Shown here: positions 18,736 to 19,486 of the stretch, one piece after another
Layout: the number at the start of each line of letters is the position of its first letter
Numbering within the stretch: the first letter of the stretch is position 1
Origin: Bacteroidia bacterium
GTDB lineage: Bacteria > Bacteroidota > Bacteroidia > B-17B0 > Aurantibacillaceae
Assembly (NCBI GenBank): GCA_026003255.1
Contig: BPGX01000002.1
Location: 1-64,000 of the forward strand
Direction of reading: 5' to 3'
Length of the DNA stretch: 64,000 nt
The notes under the pieces: generated by a model
What the model was told of the DNA's origin: nothing
Databases searched by the model: none
Seen by the model: the letters and a program-made list of their open reading frames with translations, nothing else
Made by a program: the position numbers and the translations under genes

Positions 18736-19205
18736 TTAATTGGTTTTATAGTTTGTAGTAATGTAATTTTCAATTTTTTTAATATCGTTCAAGATAGAGG
18801 GTGTGTAATTTAAGATATTTTGATAAAGTTCTGCATAATTCGTTAAAGAATAATCGTGTGCAGAATAGTTTCTGATTTCCCGAATTTTTATCCATATATC
18901 GCTATCAGTTATCCATTCCTTTTTTTCTGCTATGTTTAATAAATCTCTCAAACTTTGAAATTCAAACAATTCTATTTGTGCAAGGAGTTTAATCATTTTT
19001 TTTAGAAATATATCACTTGTTCTTGCAAATCGACTGGCAAATGCTTCCAATTTCATAAGCTCCTGATCATTTAATTTTTCCCAATTATTTATATTTTATT
19101 TATTGTATGACATTGTTCAAAAGATTCACTTAATCTTTGAGCGCTTTTTTTTAATAAATTTAAGGTAAAATACAAATGTTCCCATTCTTCTTTTGATATT
19201 TTCAT
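18736..19205 (-). pseudogene. HEPN-domain protein of a MNT/HEPN (HepT-like) pair, reading frame interrupted near 19090
   Basis: ORF 18736-19056 carries the Rx4HxY motif (REIRNYSAHDYS). An upstream piece from ATG 19205 (MKISKEEWEHLYFTLNLLKKSAQRLSESFEQCHTINKI*) stops at 19089; the downstream frame continues INNWEKLNDQELMKLEAFASRFARTSDIF. Confidence 0.7.
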
Positions 19206-19486
19206 AATTCAATCAGGTCTTTTGAAATACTTTTAATAAAAGGGTTTTCGTCTAATCGTTTTGCAATCACAACATCTATTTTTTGTTCTTCCATTTGTTT
19301 GAATAAATCACACCGAATGTCAATAAGGTCAGAAAAACTCAGTGTATCGGATAATACTAAAATATCAATATCCCCTCCTTTTTTGTTGTCTTTTGTGCGA
19401 GAACCAAATAAAAAAATTTTTGCGTTTTTATCTCTCTTCAAAATGGATGTTTTAATTATTTTTATCTCATCAGGTTGGATACGCAT
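19202..19486 (-). CDS. MNT-type nucleotidyltransferase (MntA-like)
   Basis: FLFGSRTKDNKKGGDIDILVLS nucleotidyltransferase motif (GS-x9-DxD); ATGA overlap with the HEPN start at 19205. Confidence 0.85.
   Translation of the reverse strand: MRIQPDEIKIIKTSILKRDKNAKIFLFGSRTKDNKKGGDIDILVLSDTLSFSDLIDIRCDLFKQMEEQKIDVVIAKRLDENPFIKSISKDLIEL

Follow-up and report, generated by a model that had tools for sequence, protein, structure and literature searches.

A probably decaying MNT-HEPN toxin-antitoxin pair between pdhA and pdhC in a Bacteroidia genome

The closest described counterpart of the locus analyzed here is the type VII toxin-antitoxin system MntA/HepT, represented by SO_3165/SO_3166 of Shewanella (PMC7641770), which consists of adjacent small genes for a minimal nucleotidyltransferase (MNT) with a GS...DxD motif and a HEPN protein with an Rx4HxY motif. 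Class I of that study pairs a PF08780 or PF01934 partner with PF01909. Makarova 2009 (PMC2701414) reports an MNT-HEPN module within the lysine biosynthesis operon of one Thermus thermophilus strain, HB8, that is missing from another, HB27; the same source remarks on many solo toxins and antitoxins. Nothing specific on toxin-antitoxin pairs within pdh operons came up in a literature search.

The MNT-HEPN locus between pdhA and pdhC

We analyzed a 64,000-nucleotide stretch of a Bacteroidia genome (hereafter the window; its genome is G000). The gene order pdhA, MNT, HEPN, E2 runs on the minus strand throughout, with gaps of at most 12 nt (Table 1). The strand of the four genes, the positions of pdhA and MNT, and the 9 nt between them were reproduced from the initial annotation, which was also right in assigning the pair to the MNT/HEPN (MntA/HepT-like) family and in placing it inside the pdhA-E2 transcription unit. 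Both pdhA and E2 exceed curated model cut-offs and are true pyruvate dehydrogenase (PDH) subunits. At the downstream end, the spacing read earlier was likewise confirmed, with 12 nt from the HEPN stop to the E2 ATG and 3 nt to an alternative TTG. MNT adjoins HEPN in one operon, and the spacing suggests that the two genes are co-transcribed with pdh. Promoter and terminator scans of the coding strand from pdhA to E2 gave nothing over shuffled sequences with the sigma-70 consensus, a poor fit for Bacteroidota.

Table 1. Features of the pdhA-pdhC region of the window
Feature	Position	Strand	Profile evidence
pdhA, pyruvate dehydrogenase E1 alpha, 341 aa	19496..20521	-	TIGR03182, 469 bits (cut-off 394)
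MNT, minimal nucleotidyltransferase, antitoxin-type, 94 aa, intact	19202..19486	-	PF18765, 35.5 bits; PF01909, 33.3 bits
HEPN N-terminal piece, 38 codons opening at the ATGA overlap and closed by TAA	19089..19205	-	HEPN profile positions 3-34
HEPN C-terminal piece, other frame, with RNYSAHDY, 119 open codons	18736..19095	-	HEPN profile positions 33-146
pdhC, PDH E2 dihydrolipoamide acetyltransferase, ATG start, 529 aa	17134..18723	-	TIGR01349, 559.7 bits (cut-off 445)

The window MNT is a Pol-beta-type nucleotidyltransferase that passes the curated Pfam cut-offs for PF18765 and PF01909. Alignment of 17 family members revealed that all family-invariant residues are kept in the window protein. 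The GS-x9-DxD motif, noted earlier from the sequence, is present and is shared by 16 aligned relatives; it is one residue shorter than the published GSX10DXD. PADLOC returned weak PDC-S09/M05A matches for MNT and no match for HEPN, and the PDB sequence matches (Legionella MNT/HEPN, HI0073, and HI0074) were weak.

The HEPN gene, FRAMESHIFTED, is split over two frames. The ATGA that overlaps the end of MNT (19202-19205) is present as first described, but the HEPN reading frame does not start there as proposed, since that ATG opens only the short N-terminal frame. The predicted RNYSAHDY motif (Rx4HxY) is indeed encoded, in an ORF whose first ATG at 19056 gives 106 aa (18736-19056) and whose frame is open from about 19095. 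The ATGA frame and the motif-bearing ORF are offset by 149 nt, which is not a multiple of 3, and the two frames share the 4 nt at 19092-19095. The profile of 56 intact HEPN relatives spans both frames end to end with nothing missing, so that, as assembled, the gene is best read as a HEPN of full length whose frame changes once, near 19092-19095. The protein belongs to the HEPN-M superfamily (PF08780/PF01934), whose helical bundle has a conserved R and a conserved H; in our alignment, R, N, H, and Y of the motif are all invariant. A search of the genome with PF05168 (HEPN-T) found no match, because this HEPN is PF08780-like.

Related insertions in congeners and at sdhC

Comparison with congeners revealed the same pdhA-E2 insertion in the sister species G002 (pdhA 93% identical). 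Its MNT is intact and 70% identical to the window MNT, and its HEPN lies in four pieces in three frames, with three frame changes, in an assembly independent of that of the window. The HEPN lesions of the two genomes are not identical, and a first lesion in a variable loop may be common to both. The congener G003 (pdhA 89% identical) has pdhA and E2 without the insertion, and the incomplete assembly G001 yielded no pdhA orthologue. The possibility that the pair is ancestral and conserved, which the initial annotation had named as counting against its reading, therefore holds in part: the insertion is present in two of the three congeners with a readable pdhA-E2 junction and absent in G003. Between G000 and G002, pN/pS was 0.25 for MNT and 0.48 for HEPN, and dN/dS was 0.05 for pdhA and 0.08 for E2, all rough ratios at saturated synonymous sites. 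The pN/pS values indicate some constraint on both MNT and HEPN during part of the divergence, weaker on HEPN.

Most other family-level relatives have no insertion, with a pdhA-E2 gap of about 0-110 nt. In 6 of 30 loci (L004, L006, L020, L024, L025, and L030), the gap holds instead an ORF resembling TIGR02436, a four-helix-bundle (S23/IVP) family; one of the six was run against the model and the other five were assigned by a common motif. Elsewhere, AT-rich imperfect inverted repeats with scores over those of simple shuffles border several TIGR02436 copies, which suggests a mobile or repeat-borne element.

A second insertion lies at sdhC. In G005, of the same family, an intact MNT-HEPN pair directly follows sdhC, and the contig ends before the next gene. 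In the window genome itself (contig C8:62888-63088; L043:1474-1701, minus strand), a frameshifted MNT remnant lies between sdhC and sdhA and HEPN is gone; in G002, a stub of about 36 MNT codons is left at the same site. The loci recorded for the insertion at sdhC are L043, L161, and L034. In the MNT tree, the sdh copies cluster together (support 0.96) and the pdh copies cluster elsewhere, beside a Ferruginibacter pair (support 0.90), the other nodes of this short protein being weak. Given these separate positions, the two insertions look like separate acquisitions, with the one at sdhC the older. Read together, the two sites form a decay series that runs from a frameshifted HEPN, through loss of HEPN with a frameshifted MNT, to a stub.

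Distribution and genomic context of the family

In a survey of 80 MNT-family loci from genomes of many phyla, which is biased by its anchoring on MNT, HEPN lies in a single frame in 61, mostly with the ATGA overlap. In some of the remaining loci, MNT is intact and HEPN is damaged or absent, and relatives with the same site keep both. Such cases of a surviving MNT are L052 (vs L071), L061 (vs L064/L075), and L095 (vs L090/L109); solo MNTs also recur in other phyla. When 248 genomes of the phylum were surveyed with HEPN as the anchor, each of the 28 intact HEPNs examined had an MNT next to it, and the two broken HEPNs both lay beside an intact MNT. Individual loci depart from the usual arrangement. 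G043 (L033:1342-1815) has an intact HEPN of 157 aa without a recognizable MNT alongside, and a Rickettsiaceae metagenome-assembled genome (L107:4001-4738) has MNT and a HEPN-like domain fused in one 244-aa ORF. Contig C1 of the window genome (L036:1366-2115) carries an intact pair in reverse order, HEPN then MNT, with an HI0074-type HEPN of 145 aa (105 bits, cut-off 55.8; RNQTSHTY) and an MNT of 102 aa.

Placement in a core-metabolism operon had been thought unusual, and this view is not borne out. The pair also occurs between cysD and cysN (Saprospiraceae), between alaS and rpsA (Hydrogenothermaceae), and between sdhC and sdhA, beside the published lysine-operon case in Thermus (PMC2701414). 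Two candidate core-operon cases were dropped: L082, where the gene upstream of the presumed nuoG neighbor has no Pfam match, and L124 (atpD), where MNT lies at a distance of 250 nt and the gene upstream is no atp gene. No enrichment in operons was observed; both neighbors were co-directional within 100 nt for 12 of 53 pairs and for 32 of 98 control genes (ordinary genes of the same loci; Fisher p = 0.26). Co-directional flanks were rarer for MNT-HEPN (26/53) than for controls (70/98).

Decay of the pair and comparison with described systems

Judged from sequence, the locus likely holds a decaying, horizontally acquired MNT-HEPN (type VII, MntA/HepT-like) pair in which the toxin was lost first and MNT was left as an orphan antitoxin gene. 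The pair would have entered the pdhA-pdhC junction in a recent ancestor of the genus, bringing no promoter visible by simple scan, and would have been read as part of the pdh transcript. In the ancestral intact pair, by analogy with characterized relatives (PMC7641770, PMC11586414), MNT would have silenced the HEPN ribonuclease by nucleotidylating the Tyr of its Rx4HxY motif. Breakage of the HEPN frame in the window genome, subject to assembly accuracy, would leave no full-length toxin, and the intact MNT would persist as an orphan antitoxin gene tolerated in the operon. What is left today is thus most likely a toxin remnant that is silent and an orphan antitoxin gene that is probably dispensable. 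Some observations weigh against parts of this account. The four HEPN lesions against none in MNT are not significant by length alone (about 0.14, a simple share-of-length estimate), and G043 shows that an intact HEPN can occur with no recognized MNT. The internal ATG at 19056, behind an AGGAG at 19064-19060, could give the 106-aa fragment with the motif, and faulty assembly could explain the one frameshift of the window, yet the independent G002 assembly has three frame changes.

The initial annotation proposed that the toxin-antitoxin module is functional, its expression tied to PDH. This is unsupported, HEPN being frameshifted here and more heavily broken in G002. A version of it, with the window frameshift put down to faulty sequencing or assembly and a functional MntA/HepT-type pair expressed together with PDH, is unlikely. 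It would account for the single frame change, the two HEPN halves aligning with no profile position missing, the intact RNYSAHDY and MNT active site, and a HEPN pN/pS below 1, but it is at odds with the G002 lesions in a separate assembly and with the uninterrupted HEPN frame of 61 of the 80 relatives. Programmed frameshifting or internal re-initiation, yielding a full or shortened HEPN from two frames, is extremely improbable: despite the 4-nt overlap and the AGGAG 3 nt ahead of the ATG at 19056, HEPN is single-frame in relatives, three shifts at different positions would be required in G002, and by eye no classical slippery heptamer is seen at the site.

The orphan MNT might also have been exapted, either to nucleotidylate some host target, such as a PDH component, or to neutralize HEPN toxins encoded elsewhere. 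Its being intact and constrained in two species, the recurrence of solo MNTs in other phyla, and the intact HI0074-type pair elsewhere in the window genome would fit such a role, which we nevertheless consider very unlikely. At the sdhC site, MNT decays too after HEPN loss, and orphans are therefore disposable; G003 has no MNT at all; and the other HEPN of the window genome is only about 25% identical to that of the pdh locus. With its toxin gene frameshifted, the decaying pair is probably an ordinary genomic hitchhiker rather than a working metabolic switch. A PDH-coupled working toxin would be more striking, and the sequence gives it no support.

The two core loci within one genus provide a clean example of a chromosomal toxin-antitoxin pair acquired in an essential operon and apparently dismantled toxin first. 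They also carry a warning, as motif-level detection (Rx4HxY, GS...DxD) can call a working toxin-antitoxin pair though the toxin gene is broken. A doubtful generalization would be that such pairs repeatedly settle just behind stop codons in core-metabolism operons (pdhA-pdhC, sdhC-sdhA, cysD-cysN, alaS-rpsA) because an indispensable host transcript gives expression and makes polar loss costly, and that they then die toxin first, with orphan antitoxins that may immunize the host against re-entry.

Compared with MntA/HepT, the window pair shares the adjacent small MNT and HEPN genes, Rx4HxY in HEPN, and the GS...DxD outline in MNT. It differs in having GS-x9-DxD throughout its subfamily, where MntA/HepT has GSX10DXD, and in its frameshifted HEPN. 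It falls below the curated NCBIfam cut-offs for MntA and HepT (NF047752, 28.5 vs 60; NF047751, 17.1 vs 60), and the intact G005 relative has no NCBIfam match at E<=1e-5. The HI0073/HI0074 family (TIGR01987, PF08780) is the best family for the HEPN fragment, yet the C-terminal fragment alone scores 34.7 bits against TIGR01987 (cut-off 55.8) and 31.4 bits against PF08780 (cut-off 31.8). The Thermus case resembles the window in that a module is inserted in a biosynthetic operon and missing from a close relative; it is unlike the window in that the operon is different and, in the passages of PMC2701414 consulted, HEPN decay is not described. The window pair is a further example of these systems with clearer decay stages, and no new kind of system.
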